Source: Paraglaciecola hydrolytica
GTDB taxonomy: Bacteria > Pseudomonadota > Gammaproteobacteria > Enterobacterales > Alteromonadaceae
DNA: 39,789 nucleotides
Assembly (NCBI RefSeq): GCF_001565895.1
Contig: NZ_LSNE01000005.1
Coordinates: 827,633 to 867,421 of the forward strand
Direction: 5' to 3'
The notes under the pieces were generated by a model. That model did not search any database, was not told where the DNA came from, and saw only the letters and a list, made by a program, of their open reading frames with translations. A program made the position numbers and the translations under genes. How positions within the stretch are numbered: position 1 is the stretch's first letter; each line of letters opens with the position of its first letter. Positions 9,485 through 39,789 of the stretch are shown here, one piece after another.

Positions 9485-10525
9485 CTAATCACTTTTTTTA
9501 TTGTTTTTAAGTGTTTCTACATGCACTTTTAGTTTTTCTTCTAAGCGGTTTAACTTAGCTGTTAATTTGTCTTTTTGTTCACCTTCAGCTTCGCTAATTT
9601 GCTCTTTCAGTTTTGCTACCTGCGTGCTTAATTCGTGTTTAACTTCTTCAGCTTGTTGCGCTTTTTCGGCCTTATCAAACACAATATCTTCAGCCACAGT
9701 TTGCTCTTGTTCTTTTATTTTATGGGGGGCTTTTACCAGCACTGGTAGTTCGTCTGAGACTTTGCGTTGGTTCATAAAAGACGGTGACATAATCTCAATA
9801 TCATTGTCATGCAAGGTATCTAGTATCTGACAATGTAACTTTGAGCGCATGGTTAATAGATTTTTTACGTCAATCAATAAACCGCTGACTTTATACGTCA
9901 CCGCAAAATTACCCAACTCAAGTACATGCACAAAGGGATCTTGTAACTCTATTTCAGTGGCGGCTTGTTTAAGCAAAGTACTAATACGACTATGGTGCAC
10001 GTCGTAACCCAACGACAGTGTGACCGATATAAAAGTACCTGAGCTACGAACGGTAGTGATGGCGTTGTTGATCAAAATACTATTGGGGATAGCGATTAAT
10101 TCGCGATTTTCGGTTTGCACCTCGCAATCAAATAAGCCCCGTTCAGTGACCTTGCCCACGACTTCTTTTACTCGAATATAATCACCGGTTTTAAAAGGCT
10201 CGGTAAAGCGCATCACTGCACCAGCGACCAAATTACTAATGATAGTGGTAGACGAAAAGGCCAATAAACCCGATAACAACAAACCAATCAAGCTCAGTAC
10301 CTGAGACTCAGATGACTCGCTAATAGGTAAAGAGATAACCACAGCAACAACCGCAACTAAGATTAAAACCAGCATAATAAGTTGGCGAGCAAACATATGT
10401 TCGTGGCTTTTTTGTACATCGCGTTTAAATAAAAACCAGTGGGCGAACCAGTGTAGCGCGCTAAAAAATCCCAAAGTGATCACTGTGGGCAACCATGTAA
10501 TGGTCAACTCGCCAAACATTTCCAA
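9485..10525 (-). CDS. Mechanosensitive ion channel, MscS family
   Basis: The 346-residue product has three transmembrane helices (about 10-30, 45-66 and 72-100), the last being the pore-lining helix, then the MscS beta domain with FKTGDYIRVKEVVGKVTERG and NRELIAIPNSILINNAI. The C-terminal 70 residues (about 275-346) are a charged coiled coil rich in Lys/Glu, an addition to the basic MscS fold. The channel would open on membrane tension and release solutes during hypo-osmotic shock. The start is uncertain: a TTG at 10525 has AAGGA at ideal spacing (7 nt), while the ATG at 10519 is 13 nt away; TTG is given here. The upstream gap contains a dispersed repeat. Confidence 0.88.
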   Translation of the reverse strand: MEMFGELTITWLPTVITLGFFSALHWFAHWFLFKRDVQKSHEHMFARQLIMLVLILVAVVAVVISLPISESSESQVLSLIGLLLSGLLAFSSTTIISNLVAGAVMRFTEPFKTGDYIRVKEVVGKVTERGLFDCEVQTENRELIAIPNSILINNAITTVRSSGTFISVTLSLGYDVHHSRISTLLKQAATEIELQDPFVHVLELGNFAVTYKVSGLLIDVKNLLTMRSKLHCQILDTLHDNDIEIMSPSFMNQRKVSDELPVLVKAPHKIKEQEQTVAEDIVFDKAEKAQQAEEVKHELSTQVAKLKEQISEAEGEQKDKLTAKLNRLEEKLKVHVETLKNNKKSD

Positions 10526-10580
10526 TTTTTATTCCTTAATATCACTAAACTGATATGTAACTCGAAGGTTATCTATAGCC

Positions 10581-10715
10581 AAAATCATTGGAATTGCACG
10601 GCGGCGGCAAATGAGTGAGACCCCATGAGCTTAGCCGTACTAAGTGCAACGCGGTTGGCGATGGTGGCGAATAAGTGCAGCCAACAAACGTGCAGTTTCA
10701 AGGATGAAGGGTATA
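10581..10715 (+). repeat. 135-bp dispersed intergenic repeat, copy 1
   Basis: Closely matches 21651-21785 over its whole length, in the same orientation. Conserved blocks include GGCGGCAAA, CCCCATGA, TACTAAGTG, AGTGCAGCCAACAAA and GTTTCAAGGATGAAGG. Near the ends TTGGAATTGCAC and GTGCAGCCAA are inverted repeats of each other, giving a MITE-like or structured-RNA look. It lies between the MscS gene and the histidine kinase gene. Confidence 0.8.
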
Positions 10716-37382: not shown

Positions 37383-38489
37383 ATGAAAAATCTGTTAAAT
37401 GAAACCGCTGTACAACATATCGCTGACTGTTTCAGTGCAGTAGATAAAAACTTTAATCACCCAGAATTCTGCCAACAGGCATTACAGGGTTTAAACACTC
37501 TCGAACTCAAACAGCGGGTAAACCATATCATCGAGGTATTACATCGATTTTTACCGAGTGACTTTCAACAAACATCAGAACTGCTCAAACTCTTACCTAA
37601 GGTGTGGCAACAACAAGATCCCAATAAACAAGTCAGTAACTTTGCTGCGTGGCCGGTGATCGATTACGCCAGTGTTTATGGTTTAGCCCATCCACAACAA
37701 TCTTTAGAGGTGCTAAAAACGCTAACCCCTTTGTTTAGCGCTGAATTTGCTATACGTGCTTTTATTATCGACCATTCTGAATACTGCCACAGCCAATTTA
37801 AATTATGGGTCAAAGACGACAGTGAACATGTGCGCCGTTTAGTCTCTGAAGGTACTCGCCCTCGCCTGCCTTGGGGTTTACAACTTAAACGCTATATGGC
37901 TGATCCCTCACCCAATATTCCATTGTTAGCCGCGTTAAAAGACGATCCCAGTTTGTATGTCAGGCGCTCGGTAGCCAATCATCTCAACGACATCAGCAAA
38001 GACAATCCGGATAAACTCTTAGAAATTTGTCAAGCTTGGCATGTTAACGCCAGCAAGCACGTACTGTGGATAATCAAACACGCCACCCGCAGTTTAGTTA
38101 AAGCCGGAGATGCGCAAGTATTACGTTTGTTAGGTTATGAGCAAAGTGTTGCGCTAAAACCAGTCAAATTAAATATCACCAATAGCCAAGTAAAACTGGG
38201 CGACTATCTTGAATTCGACTTTGAGCTCCACTCCACCAGCTCAGAGTCACAAAACCTCGTCATCGACTTTGCCATTCATTTTGTCAAAGCTAACGGCCAA
38301 CAAAAGGCCAAAGTGTTTAAACTAAAATCCATTGAATTAGGCGCTAAACAAAGCAATAAAATACAAAAACGCCATGGCATAAAGGTGATCACTACCCGCC
38401 AGTATTATGCAGGCACGCATTTGTTAGAGATTTTGATAAATGGTCTAGGGGTGGCGAGTCAGGAGTTTGAGCTGAGCAAACAAATTTAA
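37383..38489 (+). CDS. DNA alkylation repair protein (AlkD/AlkC-like HEAT fold)
   Basis: From the ATG at 37383 (an in-frame GTG at 37350 lies in the terminator region and is not preferred) the product has 368 residues. The first 240 or so are helical HEAT-like repeats with VRRLVSEGTRPRLPWG and DPSLYVRRSVANHLNDISKD, which match AlkC/AlkD-type glycosylases; these excise 3-methyladenine and related bases without flipping them. The last 110 residues are beta-rich (KLGDYLEFDFELHS), as in AlkC proteins with an Ig-like C-terminal domain. Cytoplasmic. The stop TAA lies inside an attC core sequence at 38484-38490. Confidence 0.88.
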   Translation: MKNLLNETAVQHIADCFSAVDKNFNHPEFCQQALQGLNTLELKQRVNHIIEVLHRFLPSDFQQTSELLKLLPKVWQQQDPNKQVSNFAAWPVIDYASVYGLAHPQQSLEVLKTLTPLFSAEFAIRAFIIDHSEYCHSQFKLWVKDDSEHVRRLVSEGTRPRLPWGLQLKRYMADPSPNIPLLAALKDDPSLYVRRSVANHLNDISKDNPDKLLEICQAWHVNASKHVLWIIKHATRSLVKAGDAQVLRLLGYEQSVALKPVKLNITNSQVKLGDYLEFDFELHSTSSESQNLVIDFAIHFVKANGQQKAKVFKLKSIELGAKQSNKIQKRHGIKVITTRQYYAGTHLLEILINGLGVASQEFELSKQI

Positions 38490-38590
38490 CGTAGAACACG
38501 ATTGTTTTTTGGCTCCGACCTTTTTCTACAGCCTCAACGCTTTTAGAAGCTGCGCTGTTTTATCGCGTCCGCTTGCTCAACTTGTTAGCT
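38484..38590 (-). repeat. attC-like integron recombination site (toxin-antitoxin cassette)
   Basis: Read on the minus strand it opens with AGCTAAC followed by AAGTTGAGCAAGCGGACGC and closes with GTTAAAT, which fits the GTTRRRY core (38490-38484). An inner stem AAGC...GCTT and ACAGC/GCTGT can form. A shorter reading ends at GTTGAGG (38537-38531), giving a 60-bp site. The exact right core is uncertain. Confidence 0.65.
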
Positions 38591-38862
38591 GTAATATCTT
38601 GTAAAGTGCCAGATACATATTTGTGAAGTACACTAGCCACCAATGTTTGATATGGAATGCCTTCTTCCAAAGCGCGGCGCTGAATCGCAGATAAATCATG
38701 CCCAGATAAGCGAATATTAATACGCTTATCTCTTTTGAATGTATCCTCTGCGGATGCTTGGATTTCGGACTTACGCTTTTCTGTTAGTGTTGATGTAAAG
38801 TTACCACTATCAAAATCATCGAGTAAATCTCGTTCTTTTTGATCCAGTTTTACATTGTTCAT
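38560..38862 (-). CDS. Antitoxin partner of BrnT-like toxin (ribbon-helix-helix type)
   Basis: The 100-residue product has a variable N-terminus and a C-terminal region with KRINIRLSGHDLSAIQRRALEEGIPYQT (residues about 44-71), the pattern of CopG/BrnA-type ribbon-helix-helix antitoxins that bind DNA and neutralise the toxin. The start overlaps the toxin stop by 4 bp (ATGA), so the two are coupled, toxin first. The last nine residues (ANKLSKRTR) are encoded by the attC-like site. It should repress its own operon, as related systems do. Confidence 0.82.
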   Translation of the reverse strand: MNNVKLDQKERDLLDDFDSGNFTSTLTEKRKSEIQASAEDTFKRDKRINIRLSGHDLSAIQRRALEEGIPYQTLVASVLHKYVSGTLQDITANKLSKRTR

Positions 38863-39137
38863 GGCTTTTCACCTAAATATTGCTTAGTAGCCTTGCGACT
38901 AGGGATGACTGTTTTTAAGAAAATTTCTTCATCAGTTTCAATATAGGGAACCAGATATGCGTAGTTATCAATATTGATGATGAAAATCCGTTGATTGGGG
39001 TACTTTTGCTGATTTGAGTTTTTCAAATCATCTAACAAGCAATTATTTTGAAGATGATAAATAACATCTTCAAACGAGATGCCGCGCTCCTCAATTAAGA
39101 GCTTGTTTTTATCAGGATTCCAATCAAATACTTTCAT
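38859..39137 (-). CDS. BrnT-family toxin
   Basis: The 92-residue product starts KVFDWNPDKNKLLIEERGIS, the standard N-terminus of BrnT ribonuclease toxins (PF04365), and continues with a RelE-like core (RIFIINIDNYAYLVPYIE). BrnT toxins cut RNA and stop growth until the antitoxin is restored. It is the first gene of a two-gene operon. The unit lies within an integron-like cassette on the minus strand; toxin-antitoxin pairs are well known to stabilise cassette arrays. Confidence 0.85.
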   Translation of the reverse strand: MKVFDWNPDKNKLLIEERGISFEDVIYHLQNNCLLDDLKNSNQQKYPNQRIFIINIDNYAYLVPYIETDEEIFLKTVIPSRKATKQYLGEKP

Positions 39138-39176
39138 GTTTAGCAGTCTAGCATTGTGTGCCGTATGTCATCAAGA

Positions 39177-39293
39177 AGCTAACGTTTCAAATAAGCGGCA
39201 CAGATTTGCTGGCTATACTTGTCGAAGAATGAGCCGCAGCCAGCGAGTATGTGTCCGGCGACGAAGGAGCGCACTTGATTTACCTTGTTAGGT
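39177..39293 (-). repeat. attC integron recombination site (117 bp)
   Basis: On the minus strand: core ACCTAAC (RYYYAAC), an arm AAGGTAAATCAAGTGCGC, a long middle with GCTGGCT/AGCCAGC inverted repeats, the complementary arm GTGCCGCTTATTT, and the end core GTTAGCT. Arms pair with extra unpaired bases, as in real attC sites, and the length matches long sites of chromosomal integrons. The stop codon of the gene upstream lies in the first core. Confidence 0.8.
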
Positions 39294-39539
39294 GCTACTA
39301 GCACACACTACCTCCATTTTTATTTCAGAAGGTTCGAAAGTAGTAAGCCATTTCGTAACGCCTTTCTCATCACTACATTCAATGTCATAACCTAAGCAAG
39401 GTGTAGTATAAATTTCTACAATGGTTCCAACATCTCCTATTTTAGGTGAGCAATAGCCCAAGCAAGATCCACGACCCTGTAACTTTTTGGGATTCGAAAT
39501 TTCTAATACTTTGATCACATCGTATTGTTTAAATTCCAT
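39288..39539 (-). CDS. Small DUF4926-like cassette protein
   Basis: From the ATG at 39539 (TAGGTG 9 nt upstream) the product has 83 residues, starting MEFKQYDVIKVLEI. The middle IGDVGTIVEIYTTP resembles the GDVGTVVEV core of DUF4926-type small proteins, and the C-terminus is acidic; a small beta-barrel is likely. Its role is unknown. The TAA stop lies inside the attC core, a standard trait of cassette genes. An in-frame GTG four codons upstream is not preferred. Confidence 0.75.
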   Translation of the reverse strand: MEFKQYDVIKVLEISNPKKLQGRGSCLGYCSPKIGDVGTIVEIYTTPCLGYDIECSDEKGVTKWLTTFEPSEIKMEVVCASST

Positions 39540-39549
39540 ATCTAAAAGC

Positions 39550-39605
39550 ACCTAACACTTATTAACGAGCAAAGCGCATTTGTCGCTGCTCGGCTTGATT
39601 GTTTT
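39550..39605 (-). repeat. Upstream cassette boundary: GTTAGGT core and attC-like hairpin
   Basis: GTTAGGT (39556-39550 on the minus strand) is a perfect end core just before the DUF4926-like gene. Next to it CGAGCA-aa-GCG and CGC-TGCTCG (39566-39592) form a bulged hairpin. The far core is degenerate (AAAAAAC). It is probably the end of another attC site. The remaining 180 bp to the window end show no convincing gene. Confidence 0.5.
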
Positions 39606-39789
39606 TTCCGTCATTTTCAGTGCTTACCTTCTGATTTTATTACGTATTTTATGCTTTAACTCGCCCTATATTAATACATTTCCAAAAAACAAAAGGAGCC
39701 TGACTTTAACGAGACTTTTTACGCTTCCTATTAAAAGCGATGTGTATAATATTTTCCATAACTAAATTAACAACGTAGCGATTCTCTGA

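Follow-up and report, generated by a model that had tools for sequence, protein, structure and literature searches.

A probable integron platform without its own integrase gene in Paraglaciecola hydrolytica, and its relatives across the genus

Cassette clusters without an integrase gene are usually taken as degraded integrons. For such clusters of attC sites lacking an integrase (CALINs), the accessible part of PMC8618304 discusses three origins: off-target insertion, intI loss and rearrangement. What, then, is the cassette-bearing locus at the right end of a 39,789-nucleotide stretch of the Paraglaciecola hydrolytica genome (G000:C5:827633-867421, hereafter the window, meaning this whole stretch)? 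An earlier note on this DNA had read it as two minus-strand cassettes forming a CALIN, set directly against the stop codon of an AlkD-like gene. All the heptamers it named are present at their positions and, as it said, no integrase is in view at this end of the window. We find that the locus is very probably an integron platform whose own intI is gone, and which has kept attI and at least one cassette. Read from the right on the minus strand, it would comprise a LexA-like box just outside the window, attI, a first cassette (a DUF4926 gene with its site, attC1) and a BrnT/CopG toxin-antitoxin (TA) unit joined exactly at the attC1 core. The sequence comes from a draft assembly, in which a 140-N gap, starting at the base that follows the window, falls inside the attI region.

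Only one attC site is secure at the locus. attC1 (39177-39293, minus strand) scored 41.6 bits (E=1.7e-7, 208 kb searched) with covariance model R1, whose training set consisted of 18 attCs from two arrays of the same genome (L007, L009) and from one array (L040) of G031, a genome from another genus of the same family (Alteromonadaceae), with none from the window. This search, which the earlier note had proposed for both of its attC sites, bears out this one and not the other. The note had also pointed to the minus strand as the one to fold. The plus (bottom) strand folds better, with -18.2 kcal/mol, z=-1.74 and 9/200 shuffles as good, versus z=-0.63 and 49/200 for the minus strand, which was rejected as the folding strand. 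The fold alone is weak evidence; the covariance model carries the claim. Two home-made attC detectors were dropped in favour of this model, as both overlooked attCs visible by eye; the second made 31 calls on the cassette side and strand versus 4, 5 and 8 in three controls.

Cassette 1 (39183-39555, minus strand) runs from TTAGGT through the G of the attC1 R' core. This start corresponds to the R'' of the unit (ACCTAAC), the pattern of a cassette closed into a circle. In a canonical array of G031, a stretch of 74% identity (L040:1484-1799) shares this start and R''; homology begins at the same GTTAGGT and extends into the attC, the unit sitting between attCs. The gene (39288-39539, minus strand) has an ATG start and a TAA stop inside R''. 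Scored on a longer GTG form, it reaches 31.8 bits on Pfam PF16277, above the cut-off of 29.1, which confirms the DUF4926-like assignment of the earlier note. Its protein has a 73% identical homologue in G031 and is present in 9/345 genomes of the family, own genome included. The unit therefore has the features that define a cassette: a gene with an attC, G|TT limits, and matching R'' and R'.

Ahead of cassette 1, positions 39557-39789 (minus strand, continuing over the gap) are 83.6% identical over 232 bases to the attI and intI-upstream region of the intact integron on contig C2 of the same genome (L009:739-970), where the matching stretch lies between intI and the first cassette. By this homology the region is a predicted attI with the intI-upstream region, intI itself being absent. 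The C2 homology stops at GTTAGGT (39550-39556, minus strand, G|TTAGGT). This heptamer, counted earlier among the attC cores, is a real core but marks the junction of attI and cassette, and no attC end. On the other side of the gap, the first 14 bases match the C2 copy exactly where the pre-gap stretch leaves off, though taken by itself this match lacks significance (E=0.39). Judged against the C2 copy, the gap (window 39789 / L004:423-562) may have zero length. Beyond it lies the LexA-like box CTGATTTTTTATACAG (L004:636-651), with one mismatch to CTGTN8ACAG, and past this box the assembly continues into a DEAD-box helicase gene. In a colinear copy, intI would be expected on the far side of the LexA box, where the helicase gene follows, and the gap would then conceal none; an intI hidden there is unlikely, given the abutting C2 match on both gap sides. 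No IntI-like match was found in the flanks examined for the window copy.

These observations bear on off-target insertion, by which a distant IntI would have placed cassettes at a non-att (attG-like) site beside the AlkD-like gene. Integrases exist elsewhere in this genome, and the accessible part of PMC8618304 names this as one CALIN route. However, homology identifies the stretch preceding the first cassette as attI, not as a chromosomal target, which largely refutes off-target insertion; we hold it to be very improbable. As to the CALIN label itself, IntegronFinder 2 asks for at least two attCs and detects attI only for class 1 integrons, according to the accessible part of PMC9024848. The window locus has no neighbouring integrase, and one strong attC plus one at E=0.12 for that minimum of two. 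Compared with a complete integron, it has an attC cassette and, by homology, attI, and it lacks intI beside attI. The CALIN reading is right about the missing intI, with one of its attCs secure. As attI and the LexA-like box are retained, the locus is an integron minus intI, more than a cluster of attCs, and by the IntegronFinder 2 rules as given there such loci would be filed as CALINs or missed.

A scan for the cassette promoter Pc over 38400-39789 returned two promoter-like sites, both on the cassette strand, versus 4.4 expected in shuffles. An Rfam scan of the window returned no family at gathering scores, and a plasmid collection queried with the cassette region gave a single weak match, to a BrnT gene.

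The second unit is less clear. It starts (39140-39183, minus strand) with the R' core, followed by a leader containing TTGATGACATACGGCACACAATGCTA. This leader is common to the five close TA copies compared, with 1 base different in G004, and its longer form, TTGATGACATACGGCACACA(A/G)TGCTA, is likewise common to five TA copies. The BrnT-like toxin gene (38859-39137, minus strand) scores 30.2 bits on PF04365, below the cut-off of 34.5, and so falls outside the BrnT family by this measure; the CopG-type antitoxin gene (38560-38862, minus strand) scores 30.3 bits on PF12441, above the cut-off of 28. In gene order and size the pair is like the BrnT/BrnA arrangement (Pfam BrnT_toxin with CopG_antitoxin), from which it differs by this low toxin score and by an antitoxin far under the NCBIfam BrnA cut-off (19.3 versus 60). 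Searching PDB sequences with the toxin gave 2 matches with unrelated names, the best at E=0.26. The toxin is present in 12/345 family genomes, own genome included, with copies 88-91% identical at C5:128657 of the same genome and in G014, G016 and G004. The copy in the same genome belongs to a second BrnT/CopG pair (G000:C5:128657-128932; toxin 91% identical), without a clear attC by eye.

As a closed circle would, the second unit opens with a sequence complementary to its R'' (TTAGCT/AGCTAAC). This signature is weakened because R'' is in-frame CopG coding sequence and is not conserved in the closest copy, where AGCTAAC reads GCTAAT. A shorter attC2 candidate (38531-38590, minus strand) is doubtful: it has 19 bits with R1 (E=0.12) and overlaps the CopG coding end. 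The wider site first proposed, 38484-38590, was rejected on fold, cores and covariance model: it shows no fold (z=+0.39 and +0.63), its inner core is CopG coding sequence, and its outer core (38484-38490) overlaps the TAA stop of the plus-strand AlkD-like gene. The TA unit might then be resident DNA beside the end of a one-cassette array, a reading to which we give nearly an even chance. It agrees with the lack of a secure attC after the unit in the window, and with the TA copies at C5:128657, in G014 and in G004, which have no clear adjoining attC by eye and whose flanks differ. It sits less well with homology beginning exactly at the R' core in both the window and G016, with an attC-like stretch preceding the G016 copy, and with a distant TA copy in G233 (L053), which has an attC-like stretch before it and AGCTAAC at the matching place (both by eye). 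The TA unit is a probable cassette; the cassette reading, right for the DUF4926 unit, is plausible for this one. The unit would be either the last cassette retained or DNA lying just past the array end.

The AlkD-like gene (37383-38489, plus strand) is convergent with the cassettes, and its stop makes the false core at 38484-38490. The idea of an insertion directly against this stop rested on that core, which is the stop codon itself, and is abandoned. The gene has no match in Pfam or NCBIfam at E<=0.001; homologues occur in 19/60 genomes searched, own genome included. Among five relatives compared at this locus, only G018 keeps the gene beside genes of our right flank. In this genome the site is free of an insert, and the end of the neighbouring gene lies some 24 bases past the AlkD-like gene; flanking gene order differs in G018, so that the empty-site comparison is weak.

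Which integrase could have acted on this locus? Two full IntI genes, with 39% identity between them, are present: one on C5 (C5:581678-582625; 468.6 bits on integrase_gron, cut-off 265), the other the intact cognate gene on C2 (C2:378672-379628; 384.7 bits on the same model, matched at C2:378678-379610). The attI homology, attC1, the cassette limits, the lack of an adjoining intI and this intact cognate integrase elsewhere in the genome are all directly established. The C2 sedentary chromosomal integron has the same attI family and attC style as the window locus, which differs in having no intI. From these likenesses, the window platform may have derived from a C2-type integron through intI loss, its cassettes being inserted by IntI either in trans or prior to that loss; the C2 integrase might still serve it in trans. 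The C5 gene heads a second, unrelated integron, with an array at L007:12306-18040 of about ten attCs (by eye and first scan) and an N gap in L007 at 10390-10665. The nearest intI remnant (C5:885035-885282) lies 17.6 kb right of the window and, with 59% identity to the C2 IntI over 64 residues, is not closely related to it; on this identity it was rejected as the lost intI of the locus. The remnant, at L004:18036-18310, is a frameshifted C-terminal piece of a third integron integrase.

The window copy is not isolated. A 250-base attI query gave 68 matches in 18/22 genomes of the genus, own genome included, and none in G005, G011, G020 and G021. With a 261-base query, and at most two candidates scored per genome, matches were found in 25/340 family genomes, 18 in Paraglaciecola and 7 in four other genera; among public contigs, an attI pattern of 24 bases was found in 11, of which 10 are from Paraglaciecola and one is from a Glaciecola MAG. 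We compared 42 of the 68 matches, mostly the strongest (40 regions and the two own loci, with L073 and L074 as partial copies). Intact cognate intI adjoins four of these loci (own C2, L109, L094, L100) and a broken one adjoins three (L079, L080, L081); the flank of L075 is too short to judge. At the remaining loci, no IntI-like match was found on the intI side within the flank examined, and weak or distant recombinase matches were seen on the cassette side of L091 and L092. In 38 attI loci, 62 of the 63 attC calls (E<=0.01) fall on the cassette side and strand. Among the 33 loci without a full or largely kept intI (a set that includes L081, with 31 intI codons, and L075), 27 have at least one attC; the six without a call are L071, L076, L084 and L105, plus L097 and L106, which lie near contig ends. 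LexA-like boxes with at most one mismatch occur in 18/31 copies without intI, versus 0/36 stretches of the same length further out. Enzyme-less docking sites of close similarity are thus dispersed over the genomes of related marine bacteria, and this suggests that one enzyme could serve several.

The same sites may instead be dead remnants, in which intI is lost, attI and cassettes are decaying, and each dispersed copy is a separate relic of one among many old integrons. An intact cognate IntI (>=87% identical) is present in 4/18 attI-bearing genomes (own, G012, G007, G010); none was seen in the other 14, several of which are drafts, so that many copies may be dead. Some other attI-bearing genomes have an IntI at 55-59% identity, broken cognate pieces occur in G004, G006, G012 and G013, and the LexA-like boxes are imperfect in 25/31 copies without intI. 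The accessible part of PMC12444791 likewise portrays Xanthomonas integrons as ancestral systems of progressive inactivity, CALINs being present at several loci. The arrays argue otherwise: platforms 90-99% identical carry unrelated ones. We found 43 platform pairs with at least 90% identity over their last 225 bases; 16 of these involve L088 or L097, each with less than 850 bases of array. Among the 27 pairs with at least 2.5 kb of array on both sides (15 joining two copies without intI, the rest including an intI-bearing copy), 15 share some stretch and three share more than 130 bases, each time within a 1.2 kb repeated insertion encoding an IS110-family transposase. Near-identical pairs within one genome include L086/L099 (97.8%) and L077/L083 (97.3%). 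Across 33 aligned copies lacking intI, identity averages 0.77 over the 30 bases around the junction and falls to 0.31 over the following 30; this drop and the differing arrays make the attI junction a sharp exchange boundary. Furthermore, a junction between end sequence and LexA box is common to several loci, which argues for spread after intI loss, against many separate losses. We regard the dead-remnant explanation as less probable than not.

Some cassettes do recur between platforms: L080, L087 and L098 have their first unit in common, and L081 and L096, which belong to the same genome, share a stretch of 401 bases. The IS110-family transposase gene (Pfam; L081:4757-5713) lies inside a cassette array, in a stretch also found in L082, L094 and L101, and belongs perhaps to an attC-targeting insertion sequence.

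Several relatives of the platform have defined ends. A common left terminus, near -425, -393 or -440, is seen in many intI-less copies, and pairwise matches define a right terminus after the last cassette in six loci. A leave-one-out profile of this right terminus found each locus again (E 4.5e-12 to 9e-21), the E-values of an earlier profile with each locus included being so by construction; its reverse complement matches the left ends weakly (best E=0.013 and 0.0016 in two runs). The 18-base end motif GWGCSAAWWGCSGWCATT occurs 70 times with at most one mismatch, in seven genomes (36 times in G016), versus 5 for a backward control. Nineteen of the 70 sites are no more than 6 kb away from the attI matches used, with 0.75 expected, an excess in part by construction as the motif was derived from some of these loci; the other 51 are not near attI. 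All 12 units with two nameable ends have one GTGCC-type end (TTGCC in L102) and one GAGCG-type end, L099 having an extra GTGCC-type candidate that lies 46 bases outward. Of these 12 units, eight contain attI, bracketed by these asymmetric inverted ends in a transposon-like manner. End motifs (0 to 3 mismatches) are also found past the intI stop in L094, L109, L079 and own C2, and L100 has none there; 168 kb of control DNA contains 4 occurrences of the loose motif. Their position past the intI stop suggests an origin of the intI-less units by internal deletion from an end-bounded integron.

No GTGCC or GAGCG end was found beside the window platform, which does not qualify as a transposon-like unit. 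Inspection of 13 end pairs gave no convincing target-site duplication. For one G016 platform, no clean exact empty site was found among G019 and six other loci: G019 joins both flanks within about 8 bases, and the G016 insert exceeds the end-to-end unit by 378 + 60 bases. For a second site, eleven loci gave no cleaner case than G019.

Taken together, the platforms could form a distributed integron, in which one SOS-controlled IntI would serve several solitary attI platforms in trans. Those without intI would multiply as transposon-like units, with one GTGCC and one GAGCG end, spread in the genus by a putative transposase, and each would collect its own array; the window locus would be such a docking site with worn or lost ends. 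We propose this tentatively, at somewhat less than an even chance. CALINs are said to be mobilisable in trans by a functional IntI in the accessible part of PMC12444791. The Xanthomonas CALINs of that paper are also attC clusters away from the intI locus within one genus; they lie at set loci, and attI copies beside them are not described in that part. CALINs in general share with the window locus attC cassettes and the absence of intI at the locus, and differ by the attI kept here. In the accessible part of PMC12901181, Delta-attI-type cassettes of mobile integrons also carry attI-derived sites out of their usual place, functional with IntI1; there, attI parts form the site of a cassette within mobile arrays, whereas in the window a whole attI heads its own array. 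No report of solitary or dispersed intI-less attI platforms, or of Paraglaciecola integrons, was found in the literature searched (mostly outside subscription papers). Gillings 2009 reportedly describes a class 1 integron with flanking MITE-like structures, comparable to the relatives here in that an integron lies between short inverted ends; the unit in the relatives is often without intI, and the window copy is without such ends.

In this genus, many integrase-less clusters keep a conserved attI, at several sites per genome and with different arrays. This points to the spread of the docking site itself as a route beyond the three given in the accessible part of PMC8618304, a spread which tools seeking attI in class 1 integrons only would miss. 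The system also provides a natural setting in which the action of an integrase in trans on several platforms could be tested directly.

The four end-bounded units without attI have other contents. L142 has a MerR/RND-efflux cluster, L144 an attC, and L145 a group II intron reverse transcriptase; L143 is the fourth. The MerR/RND-efflux cluster, 8.9 kb long, is flanked in two genomes (L004:7505-16395, and L142:523-9464 in G006) by ends resembling those of the attI units. The 1 kb unit of G016 (L144:542-1535) contains an attC and ORFs and has no attI match. The 3.9 kb unit, also in G016 (L145:3605-7553), encodes the group II intron reverse transcriptase and a second reverse transcriptase-like ORF, and adjoins an attI platform.
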